Notes under the pieces: generated by a model
Seen by the model: the letters and a program-made list of their open reading frames with translations, nothing else
What the model was told of the DNA's origin: nothing
Databases searched by the model: none
DNA from: a virus
DNA: 64,000 nucleotides
Reading direction: 5' to 3' (one strand)
Virus record (IMG/VR): IMGVR_UViG_3300021591_000021
Span: 1-64,000 of that record
Shown here: positions 14,012 to 39,811 of the stretch, in pieces
How the letters are laid out: each line of letters starts with the position of its first letter
Numbering within the stretch: the first letter of the stretch is position 1
Program-made: the position numbers and the translations under genes

Positions 14012-15478
14012 ATGTCTTATGAAGTGTATGTAGACAACAAGCCACTTGGTTACCTTAGTTACATTCTCGAAGAATTGAATGGGCACGAGGAAGCAGTCAT
14101 AATACTTGAAAACAACGAAACTAACAGAGCATTGGTCCAAGAGAATGTCTCAGTAACTATCAAATACTGTGGAAAGACAATCTTCACTGGGACTCTCTTT
14201 GGAGTGAAATACTCTCCAGAGAAGCTTGAATGCATGGTGTATAACGATGTCTACGATAAACTAAAGAACTCCATAATCGAAAAAGAATATCCTGATCCAA
14301 CTAGTCCATCGACAATTCTCTCTGACATTGCTTCAGCAGCAGGAGTAACAGCAGGAGAATGTCCATCAACACCTACAGTCTCTGTGAGATTCGACAAGAC
14401 GGTCTGCATGGACGCAGTGAAGTTCCTTTGTGACCTATGCGATAAGGACTTCTATACAACTGATGGAACTACTATTAACATTGGCACAAGAGGCTCATCA
14501 AAGGGAGAAATCGAAATTCTGTCCTATCCTAGTAAACGTACGATTGATCGTTCGTCAGTAAAGAACCATGTTATCATTCGAGGAGTTGACAAAGATGGCA
14601 ATGTCATCTACGGTGAAGCCCAAACAGGAGCCGGCGATAGAGTTGTCGTCTTTGTTGAAAAGAAGGCTTCTGATGTTGCGACACTCAACAAACTTGCACA
14701 GAGGAAACTCGCCGAATTACAGAAAGAGACAGTTGGTTCGAAACTCATTGTCGAGAACACTGTCGGTATGAATCTTGAAGTCGGCGATACGATTACTGTC
14801 ATCAAGGAGGATCTTGGCTTTGATGGCGACTATCGCATCTATCGAATCAAACGGAAGGAAGAGCAAACGGAAATTGAAATCGATCGTCCTGAAGTCGTTC
14901 TTGAACAATTCCTCGTTGAGTTGAAAAACCTCGAGGAGCTTGGAATCTATCCAGGTCCTGTAATTCCGGTAGGGACGGAAGTAGAAGAGAAACAACTTCC
15001 GGTGTTCGACCCGTCACAGTTCTCTGCGAGTTTTTCTACTGTCGGTGCCTCTGCTTGGTATCAAGGTACAATATTTAAGTTACAAGCTCACGAGGATGGC
15101 TATTGGCGCCTAAAGGAAGTTGCGTTCGAAGCCAAGAGAACACTGAGTTCTACCGCTGGTAAAGTTGAGATAAAAGTTGAATGCAGTTTCGATTCCGGTG
15201 TATCGTGGACTCAGTATGGAAACATTCAAAGTGTCGAGACGGATACTTGGACAGAGTGCACTATCGCACAAGACATTGTGGGCAGCTACGGCCAACCGCT
15301 ATGGGTAAAATTCAGTTTCAGAATTATTGTTACGGAGGCAGGTGAGGTCACTGGATACCTTCGCGATTGTGAATTGAGAAGGTGGTCTTTGTATACCACA
15401 AGTGCTAGTGAGAGACCAAAAATTGTCAAGAAAGTCTTGGACACAATGTCCTTTTCCGACGCTGCTACAAAGACGTGA
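14012..15478 (+). CDS. tail hub / baseplate protein
   Basis: A 488-residue protein with GAGGTGATAGA before its ATG. Residues 1-310 resemble phage tail hub proteins of the gp27/gpD type: VYVDNKPLGYLSYILEEL, the SVTIKYCGKTIFTGTLFGV strand pair, EKEYPDPTSPSTILSDIASAAGV, and a late LEVGDTITVIKEDLGFDGDYRI beta module. After a Pro-rich linker, residues 330-470 form a separate beta domain. It ends with VLDTMSFSDAATKT, a single copy of the L-S-x-x-D repeat seen in the next gene. Confidence 0.65.
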   Translation: MSYEVYVDNKPLGYLSYILEELNGHEEAVIILENNETNRALVQENVSVTIKYCGKTIFTGTLFGVKYSPEKLECMVYNDVYDKLKNSIIEKEYPDPTSPSTILSDIASAAGVTAGECPSTPTVSVRFDKTVCMDAVKFLCDLCDKDFYTTDGTTINIGTRGSSKGEIEILSYPSKRTIDRSSVKNHVIIRGVDKDGNVIYGEAQTGAGDRVVVFVEKKASDVATLNKLAQRKLAELQKETVGSKLIVENTVGMNLEVGDTITVIKEDLGFDGDYRIYRIKRKEEQTEIEIDRPEVVLEQFLVELKNLEELGIYPGPVIPVGTEVEEKQLPVFDPSQFSASFSTVGASAWYQGTIFKLQAHEDGYWRLKEVAFEAKRTLSSTAGKVEIKVECSFDSGVSWTQYGNIQSVETDTWTECTIAQDIVGSYGQPLWVKFSFRIIVTEAGEVTGYLRDCELRRWSLYTTSASERPKIVKKVLDTMSFSDAATKT

Positions 15479-17658
15479 TAGTGATGAGTAGGATTATTTC
15501 GCGAGTTGGCGAGAAACTTCTTTGGCTCAAAGGGAAGGGATTGGTAATTGTTAGTTTGCTTTCTCGAAGTATAGACGACGTTTTGACTTTGATGGATGAG
15601 ATAACAACAAAAGTAATTCCAAAACCTTCAGATGTTCTTGTTTTTGTAGACAGTTTGATTTGTTTCTTCTCCAGAATCGTAGGCGACACTCTTTGCCTCG
15701 TTGACGATATCATTTCAAGGGTTTTCAGAACGATGAAATTAGAAGTCCTGAATTTAAACGACGTGCTCTTTAGGAAGTTCATAATTAAAGTTGCGGATGC
15801 AGTTTCGTTCATAGACACTGTATCGAATTATTTCTCTCGACTTCTGACTGAAACACTTAGTCTGTCAGATATCTGGACTGGTTTTTTCAGAACGATGAAG
15901 GCTGAGATCTTAAATCTTACTGATGTACTCTATAGGAAGTTCATCCTTGTAGTCTCAGATATGTTCTCTTTTTCGGATTCGGTAGCTCGGCAATTTGAAC
16001 GGACTTTAATTGAATCACTTAGACTGGCCGACCAGTGGGTTGCGAAATTCACATCAACAATAGCTGAAGTACTGTCGTTGGTAGACACGGTTTTCAAAAA
16101 GTACATCGTAGAAGCAACAGATTCCTTCTCAGTCTTTGATTCGATAAAAGGTTTTATGAAAACTGCCAAGACGGAAATACTATCACTGGTAGATTCTATA
16201 GGCAAAAAGTTCTTAACTTTCAAGGAGGAGACTTTGTCTCTCGCGGATCAAGCCTTCTTAGGACTTAACGGAATTCCAACAGATGCACTTTCTCTCTTAG
16301 ATGACGTAACAGGAACAAAAGTAGGTCCTCATTCAGACATACCCCATTCAGAAGTTGCACATTCAGATATTGAGCACTCAGACAGTTACTCCGATGTAGA
16401 ACATTCAGACATAGATCACGAAGACTATTCTGAATATCATGAGGTACCACATTCGGAAGTTGAACATTCAGAAACCGCTCATTCCGATATTGATCATAGC
16501 GATTATTATGTGGGATATAACGAAGTACCACATTCTGATATTCCACATTCAGAAACTACTCATTCTGACGCTCACAGTGATTATTATGTAGGCTATAACG
16601 AAGTTCCACATTCAGATTCACATTCAGATACTCATTCCGATAGTCATGATGATTACTATGTAGGATATAACGAAGTACCACATTCGGATGTAGAACATTC
16701 AGATATTGAACATTCAGAAGTTTCTCATTCTAATTGGTACGGTTATGACGACATCCCACACTCCGATTCACATTCAGATATTTCCCATTCAGAGGTTTCA
16801 CATGAAGACTATTCTCCCCATGACGATGTTCCACATTCTGACTCATATTCAGATATCCCACACTCCGATCAATCTCATGAAGATTATTACGTAGCGTATC
16901 AGGATGTACCGCATTCTGAAATTGAGCATTCCGATTATTCCCCAGTACATTCAGACGTTGATCATGAAGACTACTGGGTTTTTGGAGATCATGATGACAT
17001 TGCTCATTCGGATGTTTCTCATTCCGATATTGCACATTCAGATGTTCCCCATACAGACTACTCTCCTCATGACGATATCCCTCATTCCGATATAGCAGGA
17101 TATAGTGATCATTCCGATGTCTCGCATTCGGACTATTCTACACATAATGACGTTCCTCATTCAGATATTCCATATTCAGATACTCCGCATTCCGATCAAT
17201 CTCATGATGATTACTGGGTTGGACATGGTGATAGACCTTACTCAGACATTCCACACTCAGAGATCGCTCATTCAGAGATTTCACACACAGACTACTCACC
17301 ACATGACGACACGCCCCATTCAGACTCTCATTCCGATGTTCACTCAGATGTTTCCCATGTGGACTATATTCCTTACAATGACGTGCCTCATTCAGACTCA
17401 CACTCTGATATTGCACATTCAGAGGTGTCACATATCGACTACACTCCTCATGAAGACATTCCTCATTCAGATTCACATTCGGATATTGCTCATTCAGATA
17501 TTTCACACGTTGATTATTCTTCCCACAACGAAGTTCAACATTCCGAAGTAGCAACTTATAATGATCATTCTGAAGTCCCTCATTCCGATGTAGCACATTC
17601 AGAAGTAGAACATTCTGATGCTATGCATTCAGAAATAGTCCACACGGATGTGAGTTAG
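15475..17658 (+). CDS. receptor-facing fibre with LSLxD and HSD repeats
   Basis: A 727-residue protein in two parts. Residues about 1-280 carry repeats of about 17-20 residues with the core (T/E)xLSLxD and aromatic/basic spacers (FRTMK, RKF). Residues about 284-727 are a low-complexity array with about 50 copies of HSD or HSE spaced mostly five residues apart, grouped into larger units ending DY-x-PHDDVPHSD or DYYVGYNEVPHSD. The repeat part lacks Cys, Lys and Leu. Dense His and Asp suggest metal binding. The start overlaps the upstream stop. It is probably a tail fibre; repeat function is inferred. Confidence 0.6.
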   Translation: MIVMSRIISRVGEKLLWLKGKGLVIVSLLSRSIDDVLTLMDEITTKVIPKPSDVLVFVDSLICFFSRIVGDTLCLVDDIISRVFRTMKLEVLNLNDVLFRKFIIKVADAVSFIDTVSNYFSRLLTETLSLSDIWTGFFRTMKAEILNLTDVLYRKFILVVSDMFSFSDSVARQFERTLIESLRLADQWVAKFTSTIAEVLSLVDTVFKKYIVEATDSFSVFDSIKGFMKTAKTEILSLVDSIGKKFLTFKEETLSLADQAFLGLNGIPTDALSLLDDVTGTKVGPHSDIPHSEVAHSDIEHSDSYSDVEHSDIDHEDYSEYHEVPHSEVEHSETAHSDIDHSDYYVGYNEVPHSDIPHSETTHSDAHSDYYVGYNEVPHSDSHSDTHSDSHDDYYVGYNEVPHSDVEHSDIEHSEVSHSNWYGYDDIPHSDSHSDISHSEVSHEDYSPHDDVPHSDSYSDIPHSDQSHEDYYVAYQDVPHSEIEHSDYSPVHSDVDHEDYWVFGDHDDIAHSDVSHSDIAHSDVPHTDYSPHDDIPHSDIAGYSDHSDVSHSDYSTHNDVPHSDIPYSDTPHSDQSHDDYWVGHGDRPYSDIPHSEIAHSEISHTDYSPHDDTPHSDSHSDVHSDVSHVDYIPYNDVPHSDSHSDIAHSEVSHIDYTPHEDIPHSDSHSDIAHSDISHVDYSSHNEVQHSEVATYNDHSEVPHSDVAHSEVEHSDAMHSEIVHTDVS
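16327..17658 (+). repeat. degenerate coding tandem repeat (HSD array)
   Basis: A coding array of about 15-base units with the recurring core CATTCAGAT or CATTCCGAT, encoding x-HSD-x pentads, with irregular inserts encoding DYYVGYNEV or DYSPHDDV. Third positions vary freely while His, Ser and Asp stay fixed, so the protein rather than the DNA repeat is conserved. This argues against recent slippage as the sole cause. Confidence 0.85.
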
Positions 17659-23365: not shown

Positions 23366-24031
23366 TCACCTCCTATACTCGGTTGGATCGGGGATGCCAG
23401 CATCAATAAACGCTCGCTTACGCTCGATGCATGAACTGCAGCGTCCGCAGTGAATAGACTCTCCCTTGTAACAACTCCACGTGAGCTCGTACGGTACTCC
23501 GAGGTTCGCTCCAATTTTGACGATTTCCGATTTATCTAAGAAGATGAACGGCGCCAGAACCCTAAAGGACGGGACGTCTACGGCCAGCCTTATTGTATGT
23601 TCAATGGATCTCACAAAGACGTCTCTACAGTCCGGATAAACTCCTCGGTCGCTCCAGTGCGCAGCATAAGCAACGGCATCAAATCCCAGACTAACAGCGT
23701 ATCCAGCCGCGATACTCAACAAAATCATATTCCGATTCGGGACAACTGTCGTCTTTAAAGTCTCATAATGTTCTGCCGTCTCTGGGACTTCAGGGACCTC
23801 GATATCTTCATGAGTCAACGCTGAAGATAACACCTCTCTCAATGGAGTCAGATCCAGTATCTTATGATACACGCCACATCGTTTTGCGATCTCCTTCGCC
23901 GCATTGACTTCCCTTCGCTGCTTTTGACCGTAGAGAATTGTTAGCGCTACGACATCTTCATGGTAATGTTTCAACCAGTAGAGCAACGTGCTACTATCGA
24001 TTCCACCGGAGAGGAGACCGACTACCTTCAT
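23366..24031 (-). CDS. queC: 7-cyano-7-deazaguanine synthase
   Basis: A 221-residue enzyme beginning KVVGLLSGGIDSSTLLYWL, the PP-loop (SGGxDS) of ATP pyrophosphatases. It ends with the QueC zinc motif C-x8-CGRCSSC. QueC converts 7-carboxy-7-deazaguanine to preQ0. The gene overlaps folE by four bases and lies in a five-gene preQ0 operon. GGAGGAAGATGCT precedes the start. Confidence 0.93.
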   Translation of the reverse strand: MKVVGLLSGGIDSSTLLYWLKHYHEDVVALTILYGQKQRREVNAAKEIAKRCGVYHKILDLTPLREVLSSALTHEDIEVPEVPETAEHYETLKTTVVPNRNMILLSIAAGYAVSLGFDAVAYAAHWSDRGVYPDCRDVFVRSIEHTIRLAVDVPSFRVLAPFIFLDKSEIVKIGANLGVPYELTWSCYKGESIHCGRCSSCIERKRAFIDAGIPDPTEYRR

Positions 24032-24615
24032 AGCATCTTCCTCCGGTTTTGCTCTCGGAGTGACATGAACTCAGAACGCGGTGCAGCGTTCCACAGGAAT
24101 ACTCCCCGACAAGCACTGCAGACGTACATTGTCGGAGAATGTCCTTCGATTATCTTGCAGGTATGCAGTGCTTCGGTCACTACGATCACTCCATGTGGCT
24201 CAAGAGTCTCCCAGAGTTCATTGGCAATCTGATCAGTCATTCTTTCCTGAATTTGGAAGCGCAATGCGTACTTCTGTACTAACTTGTCGAGCTTAGACAA
24301 GCCAGTTACATTCTTCCTTGGAATGTAACCGATGTCAACATAACCTACAAAGGGCATCAGATGATGCTCGCATAGGCTTAAAAACGGGATCCCGAAGTTT
24401 GCAACAAGATTGGATCTCTCAGTGTACGTCCTCTTCAGTTTCACCTTTCGGCCATACCCTTCAGTGAACTTCAAGAGTGTTGCCGCAACTCTTATCGGCG
24501 TCCGACGCAACCCCTCGGAGTTTACGTCTAATCCAAGGACGTTAAGTATTTCCCTCACATGATCTGCAATTTCCTTTGCCTTCGGGTGCTTCTCATATCT
24601 CTCAAACTTATTCAC
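24028..24615 (-). CDS. folE: GTP cyclohydrolase I
   Basis: A 195-residue enzyme with the canonical SLCEHHLMPFVG and GLSKLDKLV motifs and a late Cys/His pair (ALHTCKIIEGHSP) for zinc. It makes dihydroneopterin triphosphate from GTP, the first step to 7-deazaguanines. The start is GTG after GGGAGGTGAGA. The C-terminus adds an AAPRSEFMSLREQNRRK tail. Archaea often use other GTP cyclohydrolases, so a bacterial-type FolE suggests transfer. Confidence 0.92.
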   Translation of the reverse strand: MNKFERYEKHPKAKEIADHVREILNVLGLDVNSEGLRRTPIRVAATLLKFTEGYGRKVKLKRTYTERSNLVANFGIPFLSLCEHHLMPFVGYVDIGYIPRKNVTGLSKLDKLVQKYALRFQIQERMTDQIANELWETLEPHGVIVVTEALHTCKIIEGHSPTMYVCSACRGVFLWNAAPRSEFMSLREQNRRKML

Positions 24616-24619
24616 TCTC

Positions 24620-25303
24620 TCACCTCCCTCGCTTTCCTCTCCACATCAAAAAATGAAGTTGGGGTAGGACTCGGTAAGGTCTATCGACGACCTTACTAGT
24701 CCAAGTATAGATGTGCCTTAGTCCTTTGGCATAGTCATCCCAGTAGAGGTGCACCTCTGGTTGGAAAATCACTTCTAGATCCGGACGGTTGGCGTGCGTC
24801 AAACTCTCGATGAATTCATTCGCTTCAATGACATCGTCTTTCTTTTGAATGACGAACTTCAACTGGACTTCCGTAGCATAGTCAATGATATCATCAACAA
24901 CGTCTGGACTGAGGTACTTCTCCATTCCGGAGTTGGAAAGCTTTGGTGAGACCGTCCAGACAGTTATCGTATCGTAGAGACATACTTGAGGATATATCGT
25001 TCCGTTGGTCTCGATGTGAAGTACGTACTTCCTATAGTCGAGTTCATCAGTCAGCCGATACAGCTCGTCTTGATCTTGTACGAGAGGTTCTCCGCCTGTG
25101 ATGCAAACGTGCTTACATCCAAGCGACTTTACTCGCTTGATGATATTTATGCACGACATCGGTGTCCCTTCTGTCAGTGCATACTTCGTATCGCAGTAAT
25201 AACATCGAAGATTACATCCGGAAAAACGGATGAAGGTCATCGGAGTACCGATGTAGAAGCCTTCTCCTTGGACGGATTTGAAGATTTCTGTTACTTTCAT
25301 CAT
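24620..25303 (-). CDS. queE: 7-carboxy-7-deazaguanine synthase
   Basis: A 227-residue radical SAM enzyme. SVQGEGFYIGTPMTFIRF is the QueE opening, and CNLRCYYCDTKYAL is the CxxxCxxC cluster site, followed by VCITGGEPLVQ. It rearranges 6-carboxytetrahydropterin to CDG. It lies between folE and a transporter gene, in the same operon. Confidence 0.92.
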   Translation of the reverse strand: MMKVTEIFKSVQGEGFYIGTPMTFIRFSGCNLRCYYCDTKYALTEGTPMSCINIIKRVKSLGCKHVCITGGEPLVQDQDELYRLTDELDYRKYVLHIETNGTIYPQVCLYDTITVWTVSPKLSNSGMEKYLSPDVVDDIIDYATEVQLKFVIQKKDDVIEANEFIESLTHANRPDLEVIFQPEVHLYWDDYAKGLRHIYTWTSKVVDRPYRVLPQLHFLMWRGKRGR

Positions 25304-25947
25304 AGTTCAGCAACCTCTGGCATTGTCGGGAGGATCTTCTGAATGCCCTTAAGGATTATTGCGGAGACTACCCCCGCGATGACTCGTTCCATAATCGACA
25401 CTGGTGCGATGAAAGTCCAGAGGACTGCCGGGAGATTCAACAGTACTAAACTTCCGATGTTCATTCCGACATTCTCACATATTGCTGTTGTGAAGGTCAA
25501 CGCAACTTTCCCTCTTTCGGTGACGCAATAGATCACAGCAATCATCACTCCGATGGTATAATGGATCAGCCAGAGACCCGTTGCCTGGAAGTTGTACCAG
25601 AGGATATACATAATGCCCTGACCGAAAATGTACGCTGCGGGTATCCACGCATACTTTCGATAGTGGAATGCAATGGATCCAAGGAGTGTGGTCGACGCAG
25701 TGATATAGATACAGAAGCCTGGAAAGACTGTCGCAAGTCCGATGCCAAACAAGGAAATTCCGATGCCTCCGATGATTCCAGCAATCAACGCATACAACGG
25801 AGTCAGTAACGCTGCGATCACTGGTAGGATCGTCACTCCAGCGGTTACAAATCCTGCGCCACCAATGAATTTCGAGAATGGCAGGAAGTTAGCTACAACG
25901 TATATCGATCCAAACAATGCCGAGAGAGCCAAGGATCTCGTCTTCAC
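25300..25947 (-). CDS. ECF-type substrate-binding membrane protein, likely queuosine-precursor transporter
   Basis: A 215-residue membrane protein with about six hydrophobic helices and the substrate-loop pattern of ECF S-components (FLPFSKFIGGAGFVTAGVTILP). The GTG start follows AGGAGGTGAGATA. In a preQ0 operon it probably imports a queuine or preQ0-type precursor, like QueT-class proteins, but the ligand is inferred from context. Confidence 0.7.
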   Translation of the reverse strand: MKTRSLALSALFGSIYVVANFLPFSKFIGGAGFVTAGVTILPVIAALLTPLYALIAGIIGGIGISLFGIGLATVFPGFCIYITASTTLLGSIAFHYRKYAWIPAAYIFGQGIMYILWYNFQATGLWLIHYTIGVMIAVIYCVTERGKVALTFTTAICENVGMNIGSLVLLNLPAVLWTFIAPVSIMERVIAGVVSAIILKGIQKILPTMPEVAEL

Positions 25948-26399
25948 TCTATCTCACCTCCTAATGGACTCGCTGTACTGCTGCAATATCCCTCGAGGAT
26001 TACAGCATTTTCCAATCCCTCATAGAGTTCGAATGTGCAGTCCACTCCAAAGATCGTCTTGATGAAGCGTTGGATGTACTTTGCAAGGGCCTCTACAGAA
26101 GTCTGCTCGACACAAACCAACTTCAGTCCGATGCCTCGCTGATAGAGCGACGTTCTGATGTTATCCCAGAAGGCGTAGTCTTCCTTCGGGATAAAAAATG
26201 CATGGTCGAAGTGCTCAAGCAGCGTTTGACGGACAGTCCCGAAGTCAATGGTGATGCCTTTGTCATCCGTCTTGACATCAGACACATCGAGTGTAAGGTC
26301 ACTGATCACATAGGTATGCCCATGGATGTTACTGCACTTCTCATGATACTTTATATAGTGGGCTGCTTCGAACTCAATGTCTCCTAATTTCAGTTTCAT
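25944..26399 (-). CDS. queD: 6-carboxytetrahydropterin synthase
   Basis: A 151-residue QueD/PTPS-fold enzyme. Zinc-binding His residues are visible in FEAAHYI and SNIHGHTY, with a DFDH-like LLEHFDHAFF motif and a VEQTSVEALA segment. It converts dihydroneopterin triphosphate to CPH4. A strong AGGAGGTGAGGAAG site precedes it. It is the promoter-proximal gene of the preQ0 block. Confidence 0.92.
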   Translation of the reverse strand: MKLKLGDIEFEAAHYIKYHEKCSNIHGHTYVISDLTLDVSDVKTDDKGITIDFGTVRQTLLEHFDHAFFIPKEDYAFWDNIRTSLYQRGIGLKLVCVEQTSVEALAKYIQRFIKTIFGVDCTFELYEGLENAVILEGYCSSTASPLGGEIE

Positions 26400-26661: not shown

Positions 26662-27007
26662 ATTTTCTCACCTCCTCGAGGGGCAATCGCTTCAATAGTG
26701 ACGGATGGACGACCCAACGGCACCGATCCCCTTTACGAATTAAGGTTAACAAACGTTTGTCGCCAAGGATATGCAATCTATGTCGCAGCGACGACGGACT
26801 CTTTGGTATTAATTCCCTCATCAAATTTATTGTAATCGGTAAACCCACGATTTGGATTGCTACACACCACCGCAAGCAGTCAATCGCACTTTGGTGAAGT
26901 CGTTTGATCTGTAGTTCTTTTGCGGCAGATCTGATTGCTAACGGTGGGATTTTCTCGTAGACTCTCGTAAGTAGTTCCTTCAGTTCTTCGAGTGTATAGT
27001 CTTTCAT
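26624..27007 (-). CDS. winged-helix DNA-binding protein
   Basis: A 127-residue helical protein with a helix-turn-helix-like stretch (INLMRELIPKSPSSLRHRLHILGDKRLLTLI) and a following wing (RKGDRCRWVVHPSLL). It overlaps the AAA+ gene by four bases. It may be a regulator or a replication-initiation partner of the AAA+ protein. Confidence 0.55.
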   Translation of the reverse strand: MKDYTLEELKELLTRVYEKIPPLAIRSAAKELQIKRLHQSAIDCLRWCVAIQIVGLPITINLMRELIPKSPSSLRHRLHILGDKRLLTLIRKGDRCRWVVHPSLLKRLPLEEVRKFVEEILLCESEY

Positions 27008-28188
27008 ACAACGGCACCTCCAGTGGGTCTCTTAATTTTCTTCGCTAAAGCCGGATTTAACTTCACAGTATTTCCAGTCATCCTAATAAATCCAATCCTA
27101 CTCATATCATAGAGAAGTTGCGTGGACTGATCCCAGTCTAACCCTAGGTAGAGGAGTCTTTCCTTCAATGCAACTTGATCCATCTCACCGTTATTCTCCC
27201 GTAACATGATGACAACTTGTGTGAATTGGGCTCCTCTACCAGTTTCCTTCCTGAATCGGTATCCTTCCCTTATTAGTCTGGTTGCTTCCGGATCAAGTGT
27301 GATTTTGAGCTCTTTGGAGAAGTCTCCTTTCATGATGCGGTACCCAATGAGCAGTCTCTCAAACAGCGGTTCCTCGTAGTGAATCATTCCGAGGTCATCA
27401 AACAAACGGAATACTTCTTCATCAAAGGATATCTCGTCGATTTCATTAACTCTCTGCTTCAGTTTGCGAACTTCTTTTCTGATCAAGTCTGTACGGACAG
27501 GATTATATCGAATTCCCTTAGCGCGTCGACGAGCATACTTGAGAGTTTCGAAGTCCTTCTTTGTCGGAATGAATAGTACGAAGAACAATCTCCTACCAAG
27601 ACCTGAACTTAGATCAAATCGTGCTGGTTGTACTCCTGTTTGGAGCGTTACATTCGTCTGATAACTTATTTCACCAGCTGCTAGTCTCTTATAGACATAA
27701 CCGCTGTCCAATGCACCTAACAGTGCGACGTCCAGCGTCCTCGCATACTGCATCTTAATCATCTCCGATAGCGCTGAAAACTCCTCGATTCCCAAGATTG
27801 CATTTCTGTAGATGTATGCAGCTCCCTCCTTTGTTATCGGCTCGCCATCAACGAACTTCGTCGTCCCCACGAATCCCGCCTCAGTCATACTTCCTTCGAA
27901 CCCGATATCAATGCCGCTGCGATAGAAAATTGCATGTTCCCCTCGGAGGAATTGACTCAGCCAAAACGTCTTCTCGAATCCAGGCGGAGCAACCATCAAA
28001 ATATGCAATCTCGTATCGACGACCCTTCCTGCTTCGAAATAAACGTACCGCCGTTTATTCATTAAGTTGAAAAGGTGCGCGCCGGCACTGACTATGAAAA
28101 ACGGAGCAAATCGCCGCGTATGTGCGCACCTTCTTTCTTCCAATTCTTGAAGTATCATCTCATAGAGGTTTGTCATCTTCTTTTCCAA
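27004..28188 (-). CDS. MCM-like AAA+ ATPase (putative replicative helicase)
   Basis: A 394-residue protein with a Walker A variant APPGFEKTFWL (about residues 67-77), Walker B ILGIEEFSALSEM, an arginine-rich LSSGLGRRLFFV sensor-like segment, and a C-terminal winged-helix region. The plan fits the ATPase core of MCM helicases or the related phage DUF3987-type helicases, without the MCM N-terminal domain. TTG 28,188 or ATG 28,176 may be the start. It lies between an XPF-type nuclease and a winged-helix gene. Confidence 0.65.
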   Translation of the reverse strand: MEKKMTNLYEMILQELEERRCAHTRRFAPFFIVSAGAHLFNLMNKRRYVYFEAGRVVDTRLHILMVAPPGFEKTFWLSQFLRGEHAIFYRSGIDIGFEGSMTEAGFVGTTKFVDGEPITKEGAAYIYRNAILGIEEFSALSEMIKMQYARTLDVALLGALDSGYVYKRLAAGEISYQTNVTLQTGVQPARFDLSSGLGRRLFFVLFIPTKKDFETLKYARRRAKGIRYNPVRTDLIRKEVRKLKQRVNEIDEISFDEEVFRLFDDLGMIHYEEPLFERLLIGYRIMKGDFSKELKITLDPEATRLIREGYRFRKETGRGAQFTQVVIMLRENNGEMDQVALKERLLYLGLDWDQSTQLLYDMSRIGFIRMTGNTVKLNPALAKKIKRPTGGAVV

Positions 28189-28906: not shown

Positions 28907-29606
28907 AAAACTCTTTGACAGGACAGAAGAAACACCAGAATCCCTCCTTCTTTGGATAGGAGTTTGTTTCAATACTTCTCCTGCACTCTTCGATTTTCTT
29001 CGACATTCTATTCAAAAGTCTCTCCGTGACGGATTCTGTCCAGTAGACGTTCCTCAGTGGATTATACACTCCAATCCTTCGTATATCCCAATCATGTAAC
29101 CTCGCTAGAAGTGTGTAGAATCCAAGCTCTTTCCTCAAGTCTGATAACCGGAATGCTGACTGACTGACTTTATATTCCAAGAGAATGTATCCATCTGTTG
29201 ACAACCGATCAATTCGATCGATCTTTCCAGTGAGTTTCAGCCGCGTATTCATTAGCGTCAGTTCAATTGCCTTCGGATAGTAGTATTCCCAAGGATCGTC
29301 GAAGAGTTCCTTACAAGCTTGCCAACGATTCGCTTCGAAGTTAACAAAATTAGCAATCGGGGTTCTCACCAACTTTGGGAATGCCGAGAGCACTTCGGAT
29401 AAGTAGAGTTCTCGATGACTCTTGTCCAAAAGCAAATCCATAGATTCTGGAGAACTCTGTTCAAAGAACGCATTCGCAAATTCGTGAAATACCAAACCGA
29501 CTTGCATTGGAACAGTTGTTTCAGTCTCAAGTCCGTCGATGAACCTTAACTTAAACTGGTATGGACAACGCATCCATGCGAGTAACTTCGACTTACTTAG
29601 GAAGAT
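28896..29606 (-). CDS. Cas4/RecB-like nuclease with Fe-S cysteines
   Basis: The core is a PD-(D/E)XK nuclease: GLVFHEFANAFF, TGKIDRIDRL and ILLEYKVSQ supply the His, Asp and ExK residues. A Cys in RCPYQFK and the C-terminal CFFCPVKEFC suggest a Cas4-type 4Fe-4S cluster. The first ATG (29,573) lies too far inside: the conserved opening FLSKSKLLAWMRCPYQF extends upstream, and a GGGGAGGT site points to an ATC at 29,604-29,606 as start. Likely in recombination. Confidence 0.72.
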   Translation of the reverse strand: MFLSKSKLLAWMRCPYQFKLRFIDGLETETTVPMQVGLVFHEFANAFFEQSSPESMDLLLDKSHRELYLSEVLSAFPKLVRTPIANFVNFEANRWQACKELFDDPWEYYYPKAIELTLMNTRLKLTGKIDRIDRLSTDGYILLEYKVSQSAFRLSDLRKELGFYTLLARLHDWDIRRIGVYNPLRNVYWTESVTERLLNRMSKKIEECRRSIETNSYPKKEGFWCFFCPVKEFCVT

Positions 29607-32600
29607 TCTAGGTACCTCCCCAGGGACTGTTGTTGAATTCCTTTTTCAATAACCGAGAAATCGTATCCAATCGATGCCAATAAACCCTCGAAGGGTTTCT
29701 TTATTGTGACTTCTCTCATTCTCTTCCAATCGACAATCACACCAGGAGGAAGCTCCGTGTCATCCTCTGTCAGACAAATCGCATGAGTTGGAGGCTTTCC
29801 GATAACTTGCTTGACATAAACCAACCGAGGTTTCTTATCTTCACGGAAGACCTTACCGAAATACTTCTCGGCATACTCCTTACCAACTATCCACGGATTC
29901 TTTACCTTATACACAGTCTTTTGCAATCCCTTCGGCACTGCTACTTTTTGAATCGGATACTTCGGTAGATTTTGCCAGACTTCTCGGACTAGTTTTATTG
30001 CTCCGTCGATATCCTCCTCAACGAGGACTTTCTCGAAGAACTTCTTCATAGTTGTTCGGGTGATCTCCGCTGTACTACTTCTCCGAGGTTCAAATCCAAT
30101 GATGTAAAGATTGCCTCTCTCGTCGACTCCGGCATACCTCTTCTTCGCAGACTTTCCCTTCTCACGAGTTTTGAAGAGAATTCTCTTGAACAACCTCTCG
30201 AACTTGATTACTGGTGGGTATTTTGCTCCATAAATTCTCGCAAACTGACGAAGTTCTTCGTTGAGAAGATACTCAACGACATTGACTTCCCGACGAAGTT
30301 TTGTCTTCATCTTAACAAACAGTGAATCAGTATTGTGCAAGACCAATTTTCCAACGCAAAATGTCTCAGATTCCGTAGAAAGATCGTACACACACGTCGG
30401 TTTTCCGACATTGAAAGGCGTCTTTGTCCAACGGAATTCATCAACGGATTTCACGCTTTTCACTTTCCCAGGAGGATAGCGTCTTGGACCCTTTCTCTTC
30501 TTATTTGGTGTGCGGAACCGTATTTGTATTCCTGTGTTTTGCTTGGACTTATAGATGTTCCACGACTGTCCTGTTAGGCGCTCTACAAGAAATGTCAAAC
30601 CAACAACGACACACGGATGCTTCGAGTCGACTGAGACATATTTGTAGCGATACTGAGTGTTAGTTTTACTAAAGTCTCCTTCGTAGAAGCCATCAAGGAA
30701 AGCACGAACTGCCTCAAGGGATGCGTTTAAGATCCGCCTTGGAATTTTCCTCCAACCCGTTTCTGTGTACGTGTCTTCGAATAGCTCATTATACGGACAT
30801 TGTCTGCTGATCACAAGTCGCCAAGTTTTCGACGAGTCTCTATAGTCATGTAGATACGTCTTGACTCCTAATTCAGCCAAAAGTCTCTTTGCTCGTCTAC
30901 AAACTTTTTCTGACCCATTAATCACATATTGATTTGCCTTAATGCGTGAGCCGTCCGCCGTAAACACACCTAAAATCCAAGCTAATCGACGATCGACGTC
31001 ACAGCGACATTGCACTCTAGGATATTCTTTAACCATAACGTAGTCCGCATCATAAGGCCTTACAGGATTCCCACTGGGGTCGACCAATGAATGATCGACG
31101 GTGCAGTTTACAAGCATTTCAGGAGTAACAACTGTAACGATGGGTTTTCGGACAGGTTTACGAATGACGTCTCTAACATGCGTCCAACCAGTGGCTGACC
31201 AGATGACTTCTCCAACATTTACTTCGCAAATCGGTATGATATCGATGAGACCGTCTCGTTGGACGAATATCGGCGTTTCCGGTGTTACACTGTCTTCGTA
31301 GATGACTTGATAGCCATTTTTCGCAAGCATCTTCTCGCAACGAGTGAGAGCAAGACGTCCGAGGTATGTGATTGCATTTGCAACCTCTGGATCAAACATA
31401 CGAAAATACCTATAGGCATTGACTCCGTAAATACTGCATGCTAAGAACTTATACAGTGTTTCGAGCTGTCGTACGCGATCGTGTTCTTTGCCAGTTAGCT
31501 TCTTTCGCAATGCACGAAGTCTTTCGCGCTCTTCCATATACTTACGAGTGACTTTCGGAATTATGCCCTCGGGCTCACGTTTGAATCGCCAATAATCTGT
31601 GACGAAGATCTCTCCCTTAGGGTCTTTGGTCTCAGCAGAAAGGTTGAAGGAAATTATAACTGACGGATAGATTGACTTCAGATCGAAACATGCTACATTC
31701 TCATGGACTCCAGGAGGTGGAAGTTTAACGATTGCCCCTTGGACTTCAGCGTCTTCCTGAGGCACCATTGTCGGTAACGGACGGTCGCTTTCTCGAAGAA
31801 TCTCTGTATCGATCAACTTTTTGTTAGATAGCGACCAACTGATCGGAACGCCAACGATTCTCCGAAGTCTATCGAAATGTTGGATGATACCTGTCTTCTC
31901 ATCGAGTAACTTCAATGCGTAGGCGTCGTTGATGCAATATTCTACCCATTCTTCTGGTGTTGTTCTCATCGCTTCTTCGACTCTATCTCCAAGATCCTCA
32001 TAGTAGAATCCTGCTTCAGCTGCACAGACCCGTTTGAAGTCAAAAGTCACACCAAATGGTTGGTCGGACTGCACTCCTTGACGTCCTGTGCCCCATTTGC
32101 GGTATGCGGCAAAGAAGTCGATGAAATCACGCCCTTTGATGTAGACATCCGAGAATCCTCTGTGAGCCTGGGCATTGACTGTTCCGAGAGGAGACATACC
32201 TTGCAGACTGATGCGTAGTCTTTCCGCTCGTCTTAGTAGATAAGGCATGTCAAAGAGAGACCCATTGTACGCAGTGAGAACATCAGGATCCTCCTGTTGA
32301 ACGAACTTAACAAAGGATAATAGTAATGGTCTATCATCATCAAACGGATGGAGATGTACTTCGTGACCATACTTTTCGAAGACTAAGTTTGATTCGACAT
32401 ATTTCTGAAGGTTTGGATTGTCAACTAGGAGGAATACATCAATCCTATCGTGATAATTTGAACTACACTGAATTGATGCAATAGGGAATCGAGGATCTGA
32501 TGGACGTGGGAATATGCCTGTTGGAGAAGTGACTTCGATATCAAAATACAGAACCTTTGGAGGTACTTCAAAATCATCTACTGGTACAATACTATCGACG

Positions 32601-32968
32601 TTGTGATCGACTAAGATACAGCGAATTCCTGTTTTAGAAATTTGCTCTTTGCCTCCTTGGACTTCAAAAGCGGAACGAACGTTCACATCAATCAAATACC
32701 TCAGGAAAAATTGGATGTCTGCCTCGTCGGAGAACGAATATTTTTGTCGTTCTTTCGGGACGTCGGAAGGTAATTCAGTGTAGACCTTCCTAACAGGTCG
32801 TCCAAAAATGTCGATAATATCTGATTGATCGTCAGGCACAAAAAAGTAAGGGCGGAAATTCTGGACGATGACAACAGTTCGCTCTCGATTTTTGTCTCTG
32901 GAGAAGAGAAAAATCACAGGCTTACGCCGATGTACTCTGTATGCTGCGTTCATCCAGACGTATGGCAT
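29597..32968 (-). CDS. polB: family B DNA polymerase (with intein)
   Basis: A 1,123-residue precursor, about 803 after intein removal. Exonuclease motifs: YFDIEVTSPTG (Exo I), LTAYNGSLFDMPYL (Exo II), YCINDAY (Exo III). Polymerase motifs: CFDLKSIYPSVI (A), KFLACSIYGVNAYR (B, with Cys for the usual Asn), and VIYED | TDSLFVKM (C) split by the intein. All catalytic Asp residues remain. GAGGTTGATGG precedes the ATG. It overlaps the DpdA-like gene. This is the replicative polymerase of the virus. Confidence 0.95.
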   Translation of the reverse strand: MPYVWMNAAYRVHRRKPVIFLFSRDKNRERTVVIVQNFRPYFFVPDDQSDIIDIFGRPVRKVYTELPSDVPKERQKYSFSDEADIQFFLRYLIDVNVRSAFEVQGGKEQISKTGIRCILVDHNVDSIVPVDDFEVPPKVLYFDIEVTSPTGIFPRPSDPRFPIASIQCSSNYHDRIDVFLLVDNPNLQKYVESNLVFEKYGHEVHLHPFDDDRPLLLSFVKFVQQEDPDVLTAYNGSLFDMPYLLRRAERLRISLQGMSPLGTVNAQAHRGFSDVYIKGRDFIDFFAAYRKWGTGRQGVQSDQPFGVTFDFKRVCAAEAGFYYEDLGDRVEEAMRTTPEEWVEYCINDAYALKLLDEKTGIIQHFDRLRRIVGVPISWSLSNKKLIDTEILRESDRPLPTMVPQEDAEVQGAIVKLPPPGVHENVACFDLKSIYPSVIISFNLSAETKDPKGEIFVTDYWRFKREPEGIIPKVTRKYMEERERLRALRKKLTGKEHDRVRQLETLYKFLACSIYGVNAYRYFRMFDPEVANAITYLGRLALTRCEKMLAKNGYQVIYEDSVTPETPIFVQRDGLIDIIPICEVNVGEVIWSATGWTHVRDVIRKPVRKPIVTVVTPEMLVNCTVDHSLVDPSGNPVRPYDADYVMVKEYPRVQCRCDVDRRLAWILGVFTADGSRIKANQYVINGSEKVCRRAKRLLAELGVKTYLHDYRDSSKTWRLVISRQCPYNELFEDTYTETGWRKIPRRILNASLEAVRAFLDGFYEGDFSKTNTQYRYKYVSVDSKHPCVVVGLTFLVERLTGQSWNIYKSKQNTGIQIRFRTPNKKRKGPRRYPPGKVKSVKSVDEFRWTKTPFNVGKPTCVYDLSTESETFCVGKLVLHNTDSLFVKMKTKLRREVNVVEYLLNEELRQFARIYGAKYPPVIKFERLFKRILFKTREKGKSAKKRYAGVDERGNLYIIGFEPRRSSTAEITRTTMKKFFEKVLVEEDIDGAIKLVREVWQNLPKYPIQKVAVPKGLQKTVYKVKNPWIVGKEYAEKYFGKVFREDKKPRLVYVKQVIGKPPTHAICLTEDDTELPPGVIVDWKRMREVTIKKPFEGLLASIGYDFSVIEKGIQQQSLGRYLESS
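30332..31291 (-). other. intein with LAGLIDADG endonuclease in polB motif C
   Basis: Residues about 560-879 of the precursor. The segment starts with Ser (DSVTPETPIFV) and ends LVLHN before Thr, meeting the intein rules (Ser1; terminal His-Asn; Thr +1). Block B is near NCTVDHSLVDP. Endonuclease motifs are LAWILGVFTADG and VRAFLDGFYEGDF. Removal joins YED to TDS, restoring polymerase motif C. It is the same site used by several Thermococcales polymerase inteins. Confidence 0.92.
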
Positions 32969-33651: not shown

Positions 33652-33904
33652 GTTCAATCCTCCAAATTGCCATACATGCGTAGACGACTACATCGCGTAG
33701 TTCCTCGATAGCAACTTTCGGATCAGTTGTGCCGGTTAATCGATGTGACTTGAACGCAATCATATGGAGGATATTCTTTATTGGCTGGGTCTTCCAGATG
33801 TCACCGAAAACTTTGTCCTTTCGTAGGAAAACGTCGAGACACTTCTCGAGGATGTCCCTCAGTTCATTATCCTCCGGCTGAGGATAGAGATAGAATCCTG
33901 TCAT
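33605..33904 (-). CDS. DUF1599/MazG-like small protein
   Basis: A 99-residue helical protein with RKDKVFGDIWKTQPIKNIL and a C-terminal VYACMAIWRIEHEI helix. The KDKxxGDxW pattern recalls nucleotide-modification-associated MazG-like proteins. A second such gene lies at 46,299. It overlaps both neighbours, between the DpdA-like gene and the Sak4-like gene, so a nucleotide-pool role is plausible. Confidence 0.5.
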   Translation of the reverse strand: MTGFYLYPQPEDNELRDILEKCLDVFLRKDKVFGDIWKTQPIKNILHMIAFKSHRLTGTTDPKVAIEELRDVVVYACMAIWRIEHEISDNSTKETSESS

Positions 33905-35233
33905 AGTTCTATCACCACACCAAGTTTTGTCTTCAGTGTCTCTACTAACTTATCGAAGGTCAGGTCTTCGATCTCGAGATTCAATCCGCGTTGCCAACGA
34001 CACTTAGTGACCGTTGAGATGTAGCGATAAATCCCACTGACTTTATCGTACTGTTTCTCCATATGGATTACCAAATCGACCATATGCTCGGTCTGTCGTT
34101 GAACTCTCGGCTCATCGGCTCCAACTCTCCGCCCACTTTCATCGTAGATCGGTCTTGGTTGACCGGTGAGTATTACGTGCACCTTCGGTTTCGCCATCAA
34201 TCTCAAAAGCAGCTTCCTGTACCGCATATTCGCTTTTGGGGCCGAAGATAGAGCAGCTGGGTAAGTCGAGGAATGGGACTTGAGCTACCGCCCCATCTTC
34301 GGTTTCCCCATTCGAATTGGTAAGGCCGTCCACTAGCGGTCCTTACGCTTGCGGTCACCTCCAGCCATGCGCCGAGCCATTGCCAGATGTCTGTAACACT
34401 GTCAATAACTACAGTTCCCTCGTTGATATCCTTCAAGAAACTGATCGCCTCTTCAACGGCCTCGATCGACTTGACAGGATCGATCTCGGCAGATTCCACA
34501 TTCAATTGAGCGGCTTCGAATACTCGAATGTCTTTATTCTTGAAGGGCTCTTTACATAGCAGTGGATACGTTCCGAATTCCCGGCCTATGTGCGCCGCCC
34601 GCGTCTATTAAGCTTCTTTACCTGATCGGCGATCTCTTTTTCCTTTGAAGTATATGGAAGGCGGTACCGTTGCAATCGTGAAGCGCAAAATTCATAGACA
34701 AGCTCCGCAACGTCTCGCTTCACGATGAGAAATGGTAAGATTTCTCCCAGCACTTGATAAACAGCTGTCAATCCTTGAATTGATAGGCGCCATTCCTCAT
34801 TCCAATTGCCTTTCGCAGGTCTATTCAGATATACGGTCCCAACTCCAATCTTTTCTCTAATTGTCTCGAGAAATTTCCGTGCATTTCGACTCGTGTTCGA
34901 GATTACTATTTCCGGCTTCAGGAAAGGGGTTCGATGAATGCTGACCAGACCGTCGCAGTCAATGACAGCAGCAACATACATTTTGTCACTCTGTTCCATG
35001 TTAGACACCGAACATTTTATCATTGATCGGATATTTAAACTTTGCGGCACACATAGACTTTCGGTATCGATCACGTGTATTGGCTCGGGCGCCGTCAGCG
35101 CAAAGTGTGTCTTCCCAACTTCAGGAGGCCCCCATACGAGAACCTTAATGCCAGACTTCTTGACGATGTACTCCGGCGATTTCCAGAAGTCCTCGTACTT
35201 CTTCTCAGACTCTTTCAGTAAGTTCCACGTCAT
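33901..35233 (-). CDS. Sak4-like RecA-family ATPase in three exons
   Basis: Exons 35,233-35,060, 34,577-34,304 and 34,235-33,901 join to 783 nt, a 260-residue protein. Exon 1 has Walker A (VLVWGPPEVGKTHFAL) and ends VIDTE; exon 2 continues FGTYPLLCKEPF and holds Walker B (TVVIDSVTDIWQW) up to FEWGK; exon 3 resumes ANMRYRKLLLRL and HVILTGQPRPIYD. Both junctions keep frame and give family-like sequence. Sak4 proteins are phage recombinases acting with single-strand binding proteins. The RPA-like gene is directly upstream. AGGAGGTGAGACG precedes the start. Confidence 0.82.
34236..34303 (-). other. BHB-type mini-intron (68 nt) in the Sak4-like gene
   Basis: Removal joins TGG GGA A to AA GCG AAT in frame. 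The exon-intron junction forms a 4-bp GGGG/CCCC central helix with 3-nt AAA bulges on both sides and an inner CCGAAGAT/ATCTTCGG helix. Cutting between the second and third bulge bases, as archaeal splicing endonuclease does, gives exactly the needed junction. The outer helix is imperfect. No ORF inside. Confidence 0.75.
34586..34999 (-). CDS. LAGLIDADG homing endonuclease in intron
   Basis: A 137-residue protein from ATG 34,999. MYVAAVIDCDGLVSIH is the single LAGLIDADG motif (xxxDCDG), implying a homodimer. WNEEWRLSIQGLTAVYQVL and a basic end (VKKLNRRGRRT) match its sister in the RFC gene. It would cut the intronless gene and copy the intron in. A TATA box 32-41 nt upstream, inside the intron, suggests its own near-leaderless transcript. 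Confidence 0.85.
   Translation of the reverse strand: MEQSDKMYVAAVIDCDGLVSIHRTPFLKPEIVISNTSRNARKFLETIREKIGVGTVYLNRPAKGNWNEEWRLSIQGLTAVYQVLGEILPFLIVKRDVAELVYEFCASRLQRYRLPYTSKEKEIADQVKKLNRRGRRT
35031..35040 (-). promoter_or_regulatory. intronic TATA box for the endonuclease
   Basis: Leftward GTTTAAATAT lies about 35 nt before the endonuclease ATG at 34,999. The RFC intron carries a near-identical element at the same place. Confidence 0.55.
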
Positions 35234-37184: not shown

Positions 37185-37721
37185 TCATTCACCTCCCAAG
37201 ATTTCTTTGACGTAGTTGCACGCGAGCTTTAGCTCGCCCATTGAGCGGCATCCGAAGATCATGATACGACCTGTTGAGAAGACGTTAAATGATATCACTC
37301 TCGTTCCGAACTGTTTGCGAATGGTTGCCGCAGGAAACGTCTCAGGTTCGTAGACGACTTGTGTGGAGTGTTGAAGACGCTCGGCCAGCTCAATTAAGTC
37401 GATTGCTTGTTCGGCATCTACCATAGCAACCATATTTGACAGCCTCCAAAACTTACGGGAGAGCTCGATGCCGCGCTCTCTTAGAGAGTCTTCGAATGCC
37501 TGAATTAGCACTGGGATCTTCGAGAGATCCTTGATGCCGACGAGGACTACCTTGCCATTCGCGAAAATGTTTGCTGAGACTTCTGGTAATCTCCAACAGA
37601 CAGCTGAGAAAGACCATGGATCATATGTCGATCCCTTCGGTGCAACTTCGAAGAGTTTATCTAAATTAAATTCATTCTCGTAGTAGATAGTCACGACGAC
37701 ATTCTTTATCTGTAGCTTCAT
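37185..37721 (-). CDS. tbp: TATA-binding protein
   Basis: A 178-residue protein with the two-fold repeat of TBP. Repeat 1: IKNVVVTIYYENEFNLDKLF, ANIFANGKVVLVGIKD. Repeat 2: NMVAMVDAEQAIDLIELAE, VVYEPETFPAATIRKQFG, FNVFSTGRIMIFGCRSM. Length equals that of archaeal TBPs. Repeat 1 is more diverged (no clear YEPExFP). A viral TBP could favour viral TATA boxes or replace host TBP. It overlaps the RFC stop by four bases. Confidence 0.9.
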   Translation of the reverse strand: MKLQIKNVVVTIYYENEFNLDKLFEVAPKGSTYDPWSFSAVCWRLPEVSANIFANGKVVLVGIKDLSKIPVLIQAFEDSLRERGIELSRKFWRLSNMVAMVDAEQAIDLIELAERLQHSTQVVYEPETFPAATIRKQFGTRVISFNVFSTGRIMIFGCRSMGELKLACNYVKEILGGE

Positions 37722-39284
37722 GCTCTCACCTCACGTATTACTTTTGCAATAATACTTATCAATCTATGTTCGTCTGTCGCTCCTGGAATTGTTCCGATCG
37801 CTTCGAGGAGGATCAAACGTTGATCGTCCGTTATCCCTGGAATTGTTCCTCGGAGAGCTCCGAAGTAGATGGTGTTGATGATAGCCGTCGGATTCTGTGC
37901 GTCTTCGTCAAGGAGCTTCTGTACTAAGTCAAATGCGTCCATTCGACCTTGGAGCATCCTATGCACCAAATGATATGCATGATCAGGCGTGATCTCACCG
38001 ACAAGTTCACGAACGTCCTCGGCAGACGGTTTGTCGATTGTTAACATCGCTTCGAGGATATTCAACGCCATCCGGGCGTCTCCTCGAGAGACTCTTACAA
38101 TTTCTTGTAAGGTCGAGTCACTGATCCACGCCCCTTCAGCAGTTGCTACACGTTTGAGCAACTTCAACATATTACTTGAGTGCAGTCCTCTGAATCGGAA
38201 CACCGCACATCTCGAGACGATTGCAGGTATTAGTCGTCCGAGGGCATTCACAGTTAATATGAACCTCACAGTTCTATAGTATTGCTCCATGATCCTTCGA
38301 AGTGCCATTTGAGCTTGCTTAGTCAATGCATCGGCCTCATCAAGTAGCAGAATTTTGAAGGGCACCGACACCGGGCTTTGGACCTTCGCGAAGTTCTTGA
38401 CCTTCTGACGGATCGTGTCAATGCCTCTCTAACGGTCTATTGAATTTCAATAGACTTTCGTCAGAGGCATTGAGTTCCATGAATGACGTGCGATCGCAGC
38501 CGAATTCACTCTTCAGCGCGTAAGCGCAGGCAGTTCTAGGGCACACAGAAGTAGGTGGCCACGGACGTAGGGATGGCAGAGCGGACGCCTACTTCTGTAT
38601 GTTTCCCCGTGCCTGGTGTCGGGGTTATTAACGCCCACGTTTATTTAAGAGACGTATTCTCTCGATCAATTTCTTTTCGTGATCGGTATACTTCTTCGTG
38701 GTAGGGCCTCCGGTTTTACTCAGGCGAGATTCGCAATAACTGATTAAGAGCTGCGCTTGCTCCTTTTTCAGGACTAGAAACGGTGCTACTTGCTTTAGAA
38801 CAGCATACACATTTCGCAAACCTGTCAAACGGTATTGCCACGTTTCATTCCATGTTCCGTGTGCTCTAGCCGAAAGTCGTACATTGCCTGCACCTATAAT
38901 TTTCAGGAAGTGTTCAACGAACTGTTTGGCTTTTCCATGTCGAGCGCTCGAGATTGCGATGTACGGACAGATTCCACTAGGTTGTACGAAAACACTTATC
39001 GTTCCGTCGCAGTCCAATACACCTGCGAGGTAGGCGGCTTCTACATCTGTTAGCATTCGAACTTTTGACATTCGGGTTCTACAGCATTCAAATTCTTGCT
39101 TACTTATCGGCATGAAAACTTTTTGGGGTGTTCCTATATTTAAACTTGTGGGGTTAATAACTTTCCCGCAGAAGAGCAAATTCGGCATTTCTTTCTTCGC
39201 AACATAGCCTCGGAGGATCGTTACGATTCGTCGTTGGCCAATTACCTCATCTAGCGATCGAGGCCTATACTTCTCCGCTAGCAA
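37718..39284 (-). CDS. rfcS: replication factor C small subunit in four exons
   Basis: Exons 39,284-39,163, 38,617-38,603 (15 nt), 38,535-38,457 and 38,428-37,718 join to 927 nt, 308 residues. The spliced protein reads LAEKYRPRSLDEVIGQ, NLLFCGKPGTGKTACAYAL (Walker A across both first junctions), FMELNASDERGIDTIR (third junction), KILLLDEADALTK (Walker B) and an SRC motif (PAIVSRCAVFRF). All three junctions keep frame. The TTG at 39,284 follows GGAGGTGAGAAAC. It loads the sliding clamp; no PCNA gene is seen here, so it may load the host's. Confidence 0.88.
38429..38456 (-). other. 28-nt BHB-type mini-intron in rfcS
   Basis: Between GAC GAA and AGA GGC (phase 0). It is almost entirely a perfect hairpin, GTCTATTGAA with TTCAATAGAC around one A. 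With flanking exons it forms a GACG/CGTT central helix, a 3-nt AAA bulge and a 3-nt AGA bulge, and an exon helix GCCTC/GAGGC. Cutting after the second bulge base on both sides restores the conserved NASDERGID sequence. Confidence 0.8.
38536..38602 (-). other. 67-nt BHB-type mini-intron in rfcS
   Basis: Between GGG AA and A ACT (phase 2, in the Walker A lysine codon). A 14-bp inner helix with two G-U pairs (CATACAGAAGTAGG with CCTACTTCTGTGTG), a GGGG/CCCT central helix and AAA and AGA bulges are visible. Cutting after the second bulge base restores GTGKTACAYAL. Confidence 0.78.
38628..39113 (-). CDS. LAGLIDADG homing endonuclease in rfcS intron
   Basis: A 161-residue protein from ATG 39,113, though the frame is also open from exon 1. 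AAYLAGVLDCDGTISVF is the single LAGLIDADG motif; WNETWQYRLTGLRNVYAVL and the basic end KKLIERIRLLNKRGR match its relative at 34,586. The two are clearly related, so one intron family seems to have invaded two replication genes. Confidence 0.85.
   Translation of the reverse strand: MPISKQEFECCRTRMSKVRMLTDVEAAYLAGVLDCDGTISVFVQPSGICPYIAISSARHGKAKQFVEHFLKIIGAGNVRLSARAHGTWNETWQYRLTGLRNVYAVLKQVAPFLVLKKEQAQLLISYCESRLSKTGGPTTKKYTDHEKKLIERIRLLNKRGR
39136..39146 (-). promoter_or_regulatory. intronic TATA box for the endonuclease
   Basis: Leftward GTTTAAATATA about 25-30 nt before ATG 39,113, so the transcript would be essentially leaderless. It matches the element in the Sak4 intron. Confidence 0.55.
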
Positions 39285-39289
39285 GTTTC

Positions 39290-39811
39290 TCACCTCCTAT
39301 TCCAATTGTCCTGTAAGATCGCTTCTAATTGACGTTGGAACGCCCAGACCAACTCAGGATTATCCTCAAAAGTAATCGGTATATCCGTCCCCTCGTAATA
39401 CTCTCCGGGATGGTACACCACCCAGTTTACGAGGTCACTGATTGACACTTCATCCTCGCATTCGGACTCGATAACGTCGGCAAGTCTCGGTAAGTATCCG
39501 TCCTTTGGTCCAACCCTAAGCGTAAAGTAGCCATTGTCTATAGCTCTGCTTAGGAACTCGATGTCAACGCCATCAGTATTATAGGCTATCCAGAAAGATC
39601 TTGAAAACTTCCGTCGTGCAAAGCAAATTGCAGAGTAGCATTTTGGACTCGTCTCGAGGATATAGATTTTTGGTAGATGCTCCGGAAGTGCTGAAAGTGA
39701 AGTCAACCGGAGGTTTTCCTTGACTTGTTTCAGAGAACTCTCATCGAAGTCCCAGATGATAATATGTTTACCAGACCTCAGTTTACTTGTCACTCCAAAT
39801 GTTGACACCAC
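39290..39811 (-). CDS. hypothetical protein with WDFD motif
   Basis: The GTG at 39,811 follows AGGAGGTGAGACC, giving 173 residues. Features: HIIIWDFDESSL, a KIYILETSPKCYSAICFARR core and YFTLRVGPKDGYLPRL. The alternation of strands with an acidic WDFD recalls archaeo-eukaryotic primase-like folds, but no full catalytic motif could be confirmed. It directly precedes rfcS, so a replication role is likely. Confidence 0.55.
   Translation of the reverse strand: MVSTFGVTSKLRSGKHIIIWDFDESSLKQVKENLRLTSLSALPEHLPKIYILETSPKCYSAICFARRKFSRSFWIAYNTDGVDIEFLSRAIDNGYFTLRVGPKDGYLPRLADVIESECEDEVSISDLVNWVVYHPGEYYEGTDIPITFEDNPELVWAFQRQLEAILQDNWNRR

Follow-up and report, generated by a model that had tools for sequence, protein, structure and literature searches.

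Predicted bulge-helix-bulge introns, one with a homing-endonuclease gene, interrupt the sak4 gene of an archaeal tailed virus

The 76.9-kb IMG/VR record IMGVR_UViG_3300021591_000021 contains genes for a tape measure and tail proteins, and terminase-like and capsid-like ORFs were recognized by eye; it represents a tailed virus, presumably with a thermophilic archaeal host. The record carries genes for a family B polymerase, a clamp loader, Sak4, and archaeosine-type QueC and QueD, and its closest described polymerase relatives are those of haloarchaeal tailed viruses. We analyzed its first 64,000 nt (the window), in which sak4 and the clamp-loader gene rfcS lie on the minus strand. Elsewhere in the window, a block of deazapurine-pathway genes on the minus strand (23366-26399) comprises QueC and QueD homologues together with a radical-SAM ORF judged QueE-like by eye; this pathway may modify the viral DNA. 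A 727-aa protein encoded at 15475-17658 (plus strand) contains an extended tract of HSD/HSE repeats (SDIPHSDSHSD...) and may be a tail or fibre protein that binds metal.

The sak4 gene comprises three stretches, 35233-35060, 34577-34304, and 34235-33901 (174, 274, and 335 nt), the last of which includes the stop codon. They join in frame to 260 codons plus the stop, so that the coordinates, frame, and length given in the preliminary description were all correct. Exon 1 (58 codons) contains the Walker A motif GPPEVGKT. The predicted junctions are ..ACCGAA|TTCGGAAC.. between exons 1 and 2 and ..TGGGGAA|AAGCGAAT.. between exons 2 and 3. The RecA-fold/Sak4 identity suggested earlier was borne out by the profile search that had been proposed as a check: residues 23-250 of the joined protein matched PHROG 124, the Sak4 family (77.3 bits; E 2.8e-21), and Pfam AAA_24 was matched at E 1.7e-18. 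The first open frame with the intron retained reached only 24.7 bits against PHROG 124. Since the joined protein has both the profile match and the Walker A motif, the predicted product is a Sak4-like RecA-fold ATPase, with a putative role in ssDNA annealing/recombination.

Both interruptions of sak4 were scored by the archaeal bulge-helix-bulge (BHB) rule, in which a 4-bp helix lies between two 3-nt bulges and the cuts fall after the second bulge base (PMC6379350, PMC2738675). Introns of this type are ordinarily excised by archaea from tRNA and rRNA. Intron 2 (34236-34303, minus strand; 68 nt) has a canonical BHB with the flanks ..GGGG-AA^A-CCGAAGATGGGGC...GCTCTATCTTCGG-CCCC-AA^A-A.., i.e., a 4-bp GGGG/CCCC central helix and AAA bulges on both sides, followed by a 16-pair inner helix. 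Its minimum-energy fold is exactly the BHB structure; sequence and folding together thus confirmed the perfect helix noticed earlier. Intron 1 (34578-35059, minus strand; 482 nt) has AAA and AAT bulges and a 15-bp inner helix. Its central helix (ACCG/CGGG) has three of the four pairs, all standard, and an outer A-G mismatch, and its outer helices are weak. The previous assignment of both introns to the BHB type therefore stands, except that intron 1 is relaxed rather than canonical.

The rfcS gene (37718-39293, minus strand) is interrupted three times, each time with a canonical BHB. Exon 1 (39163-39293) is followed by intron 1 (38618-39162; 545 nt; central helix CGGG/CCCG). Exon 2 (38603-38617) is a micro-exon of 15 nt, ACCAGGCACGGGGAA, that falls in the Walker A motif; it separates intron 1 from intron 2 (38536-38602; 67 nt), which has a GGGG/CCCU central helix and a 14-pair inner helix. 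Between exon 3 (38457-38535) and exon 4 (37718-38428) lies intron 3 (38429-38456; 28 nt), which has in addition an outer exon-exon helix, AATGCCTCT/AGAGGCATT. Removal of the introns restores ..LLFCGKPGTGKTACAYALKSEFGC..NASDERGIDTIRQ.., and the joined protein of 311 aa contains the motifs GKPGTGKT and NASDERGID and matches the clamp-loader PHROG 168 at E 2.9e-58. With all three rfcS introns located and the frame restored, the two genes contain the five predicted mRNA introns that had been counted before.

The largest intron of each gene contains an ORF for a LAGLIDADG endonuclease. The ORF in sak4 intron 1, which the preliminary description had not mentioned, encodes 137 aa from an ATG at 34999 (34586-34999, minus strand); the product is I-CreI-like and falls just below the cut-off of Pfam LAGLIDADG_3. 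The ORF in rfcS intron 1 encodes 161 aa from an ATG at 39113 (minus strand) and matches I-CreI and I-MsoI. The two products are paralogues, 39% identical to each other, with a single LAGLIDADG motif each. Both reading frames also continue without a stop from the preceding exon, and both stop codons, TAG in sak4 and TAA in rfcS, lie inside the 3' inner helix. Sak4 intron 1 is thus predicted to be a relaxed BHB intron with a homing-endonuclease gene. Upstream of each ATG we found the BRE/TATA-like element AAGTTTAAATA, at 35032-35042 in sak4 intron 1 and at the same relative place, 39137-39147, in rfcS intron 1 (both minus strand). The window contains no further exact copy of the element. Each of the two lies approximately 20 nt into its intron and 24-33 nt before an ATG; the spacing in the rfcS intron fits a leaderless transcript. 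The element looks like an autonomous promoter of the endonuclease genes. When the sak4-intron ORF was used alone as a query in viral contigs, no relatives were found. An alignment of the two ORFs retrieved ten distant relatives from viral contigs; around these there was no convincing frame-matched BHB, and they are apparently not located in BHB introns.

Profile searches provided three relatives of graded distance. Two are close kin: G001 (IMGVR_UViG_3300021591_000018), with a sak4 75% identical to that of the window virus, and G002, whose contig 1 (QMRG01000001) belongs to a MAG labelled Thermoprotei archaeon B69_G16 and whose sak4 is 53% identical. The window virus and these two have in common the gene order SSB-like ORF - sak4 - 99-aa ORF - 235-aa ORF - polB. 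The third, L004, is more distant (38% identity in sak4), with a similar gene order. The preliminary description had proposed a comparison with intronless relatives, and indeed sak4 is uninterrupted across both window junctions in all three (..IHVIDTEFGVAPLL.., ..FEWGKANLRYRRL.. in G001/G002). The joined window Sak4 aligns to these uninterrupted relatives without an insert. Sak4 fragments as separate genes, which had been named as the observation that would speak against introns, were looked for in G001, G002, and L004 and not found.

L004 sak4 has no inserts, and the two closer relatives have inserts of their own. G001 sak4 is interrupted by 269 nt at PPE^VGK, with a canonical BHB (CCGG/CCGG; 11-pair inner helix), and G002 sak4 by 69 nt at VGK^T, with an in-frame stop and likewise a canonical BHB (CGGG/CCCG; 11-pair inner helix). 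At both places the P-loop of the window sak4 is unbroken, and no intron position is common to any two relatives. Each virus is intronless where the others carry introns, and each therefore serves as a control for the others. Judged from the sequences, this mutual control is the strongest single argument for the predicted introns. Searches of viral contigs for the exact spliced or empty junction sequences and for a near-identical empty sak4 allele gave no match, and none of 60 MAG-related genomes yielded a sak4 homologue. The rfcS gene was not found in the G001 record, either at the syntenic place or elsewhere; it was either gained by the window virus or lost by its kin.

Several other features emerged from these comparisons. 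The G001 sak4 intron (L006 10080-10400) has no obvious endonuclease ORF, is packed with nested hairpins, and has in its interior a further sequence, GGTGATGAGGA, that perfectly matches its 3' stem; it is possibly a remnant of nested insertions. In the window PolB gene (29597-32968, minus strand), the DTDSLF motif is immediately preceded by an in-frame insert that contains a LAGLIDADG_3 domain. The polymerases of G001 and G002 lack this insert (gap of about 940 nt), which is an apparent intein, the only one seen and a third kind of invader in the module. At 68.7-73.0 kb of the record (L015 4814-9152), a metallo-hydrolase-like and a ligase-like ORF, both judged by eye, overlap and correspond to one 1360-aa ORF in G001, pointing to gene fission or fusion without a BHB. 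The interruption at 70785-71024 was tried as a sixth intron, had no good BHB, and was read as gene fission. Finally, the homologue of window ORF 27004-28188 in the MAG contig (L007 about 19300; G002:C1 25750-25854) has a single-base frameshift near its start, perhaps a sequencing error.

Counting central plus inner pairs, sak4 introns 1 and 2 have 3 + 15 and 4 + 16, and rfcS introns 1, 2, and 3 have 4 + 9, 4 + 14, and 4 + 9. We compared these with 4000 random placements of the same length, with a slide of ±9 nt at both ends and the frame kept. For each sak4 intron, none of the placements scored as well (0/4000); for rfcS introns 1, 2, and 3, the fractions of the 4000 that did were 0.00225, 0.00075, and 0.001. 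Folding alone recovered the BHBs, with z values of -3.9 for sak4 intron 2, -4.1 for rfcS intron 2, and -6.6 for rfcS intron 3 among the short introns of the window, and of -2.6 for the intron of G002. Furthermore, all seven upstream exons (five in the window, one in G001, one in G002) end in GAA, a triplet that makes up 3% of trinucleotides on the minus strand. A scan of the whole window returned 91 canonical-looking hairpins with an inner helix of at least 8 pairs. Given so many such hairpins, the BHB motif by itself is no evidence, and it is frame restoration and the relatives that carry the case.

Could sak4 and rfcS instead be dead or fragmented by insertions, with the pieces being pseudogenes or separate small genes? 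Each exon is in a different frame, and another gene nearby in the record (G000 about 70785-71024) does look truly split, into two overlapping ORFs with no BHB. However, the nucleotide differences between the window and G001 sak4 at codon positions 1/2/3 were 10/3/38 in exon 1, 22/10/55 in exon 2, and 38/15/68 in exon 3. The third-position excess in all three indicates that the pieces evolve as one constrained protein, and purifying selection is apparent across the whole set of exons. Exons 2 and 3 of sak4 also show no domain-level independence, an exact frame-restoring BHB is present at 5/5 window introns, and the relatives have independent BHB inserts. We therefore consider gene decay improbable.

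Removal by another route is less probable still. Self-splicing group I or II introns that merely end in hairpins would fit the I-CreI-like LAGLIDADG genes, which are typical of group I introns and, in the rfcS intron, match I-CreI and I-MsoI. Yet no ribozyme core was recognized, Rfam giving no match at gathering or at E <= 5; the 28- to 69-nt inserts could not accommodate such a core, and a terminal BHB is present in 7/7 inserts. This makes ribozymes a very improbable explanation. The chance that the ribosome bypasses the short inserts, as it does the gap in T4 gene 60, appears slighter again: the 28- to 69-nt hairpin-rich inserts are similar in size to bypassed gaps, but the same anatomy is found in the 482- and 545-nt inserts, the geometry fits an EndA substrate to the nucleotide, and no take-off and landing codons matched by eye. 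The apparent intein in PolB of the same module might suggest removal at the protein level. This is ruled out by frame, leaving it a next to negligible probability: the inserts of 482, 68, 545, 67, 28, and 269 nt are not divisible by three, the 69-nt insert has an in-frame stop, the endonuclease ORFs terminate in stop codons, and the ends lack intein splice motifs.

We are thus highly confident that sak4 has two BHB introns which host enzymes would remove to give a 260-aa Sak4-type ATPase, and that the larger intron is probably mobile. In the transcript, each intron is predicted to form a hairpin with the BHB at its base. The host tRNA-splicing endonuclease (EndA) would cut between bulge nucleotides two and three, and the host ligase RtcB would join the exons to the mRNA for the RecA-fold protein. 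Searches of the virus records turned up neither EndA (PF01974) nor RtcB, and the virus very probably depends on the tRNA-splicing enzymes of its host to make Sak4. Both enzymes are encoded by the MAG holding G002, a candidate host linked to the virus by one contig, which may have been binned wrongly. The mismatch and weak outer helices of sak4 intron 1 would require a broad-specificity EndA, such as that of crenarchaea (PMC6379350).

The I-CreI-like endonuclease of the larger intron most likely spreads it by homing into intronless alleles. The enzyme may be produced under the control of its own TATA box, by translation of unspliced RNA as an in-frame continuation of exon 1, or in both ways. 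Consistent with homing introns, sak4 intron 1 and rfcS intron 1 encode LAGLIDADG proteins of putative activity, and presence/absence polymorphism, with empty sites in relatives, is seen at both sak4 junctions. At the empty sak4 site 1, the sequence CCGAA|TTCGG forms an imperfect palindrome about the junction, which hints at a homodimeric endonuclease; the rfcS site lacks such symmetry. For the short introns, the simplest view is that they are relics or satellites without an endonuclease gene. For the viral lineage as a whole, we give roughly even odds to a broader proposal, that it hosts mobile EndA-spliced mRNA introns repeatedly invading conserved ATP-binding and other sites of replication ATPases, in which the LAGLIDADG copies with their own promoter move and short endonuclease-less ones (28-69 nt) persist.

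One virus would thus carry five BHB introns in two genes, two of them encoding putative homing endonucleases, and its relatives others elsewhere. Archaeal mRNA splicing may be both more frequent and more mobile than assumed, and viruses may be its carriers; gene callers would miss essential viral genes interrupted this way. The locus also offers a concrete system for studying the gain of new BHB introns. No description of endonuclease-bearing BHB introns in the protein genes of viruses came to light in the searchable literature, which largely excludes subscription journals and preprints, leaving priority uncertain; several such introns per viral protein gene, some with homing endonucleases, appear to be unreported there.

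Up to 2020, the cbf5 intron was the sole BHB intron reported as located in archaeal mRNA, besides a case in a 5' UTR (PMC7714728). Like the introns described here, the cbf5 pre-mRNA intron of Crenarchaeota has a BHB within a protein-coding gene, is often relaxed, and is EndA-cleaved (Watanabe 2002; Yokobori 2009, PMC2738675). In contrast, cbf5 is a cellular gene with one intron, of 16-44 bp and too short to encode a nuclease (PMC2738675), whereas the viral operon has two to three introns per gene, two of them with a LAGLIDADG gene. The mRNA of Haloferax HVO_1309 is likewise processed by the splicing endonuclease, but its BHB lies in the 5' UTR (PMC7714728). Introns in archaeal virus genes have also been proposed by Peng et al.; as cited in PMC2738675, these are putative, 12 bp long, and frame-neutral, unlike the frame-breaking introns with full BHB and endonuclease described here. 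The combination of a BHB and a LAGLIDADG homing-endonuclease ORF is known from introns of archaeal rRNA genes (PMC2738675, PMC4496867). Here, the host gene is a viral one coding for protein, so that, unlike in the rRNA case, the intron must not disturb translation; the ORF continues the frame of exon 1, and its end lies in the 3' splice helix. Phage DNA-metabolism genes, e.g., T4 td and nrdB, harbor group I introns that encode homing endonucleases, and these are alike in being mobile introns at conserved sites of phage replication genes. They differ in using a ribozyme, where the viral introns have a BHB and would be spliced by host proteins. If the broader proposal is true, these introns are to archaeal viruses what group I introns are to T4-like phages, except that proteins splice them, and viral replication depends on the tRNA-splicing capacity of the host.
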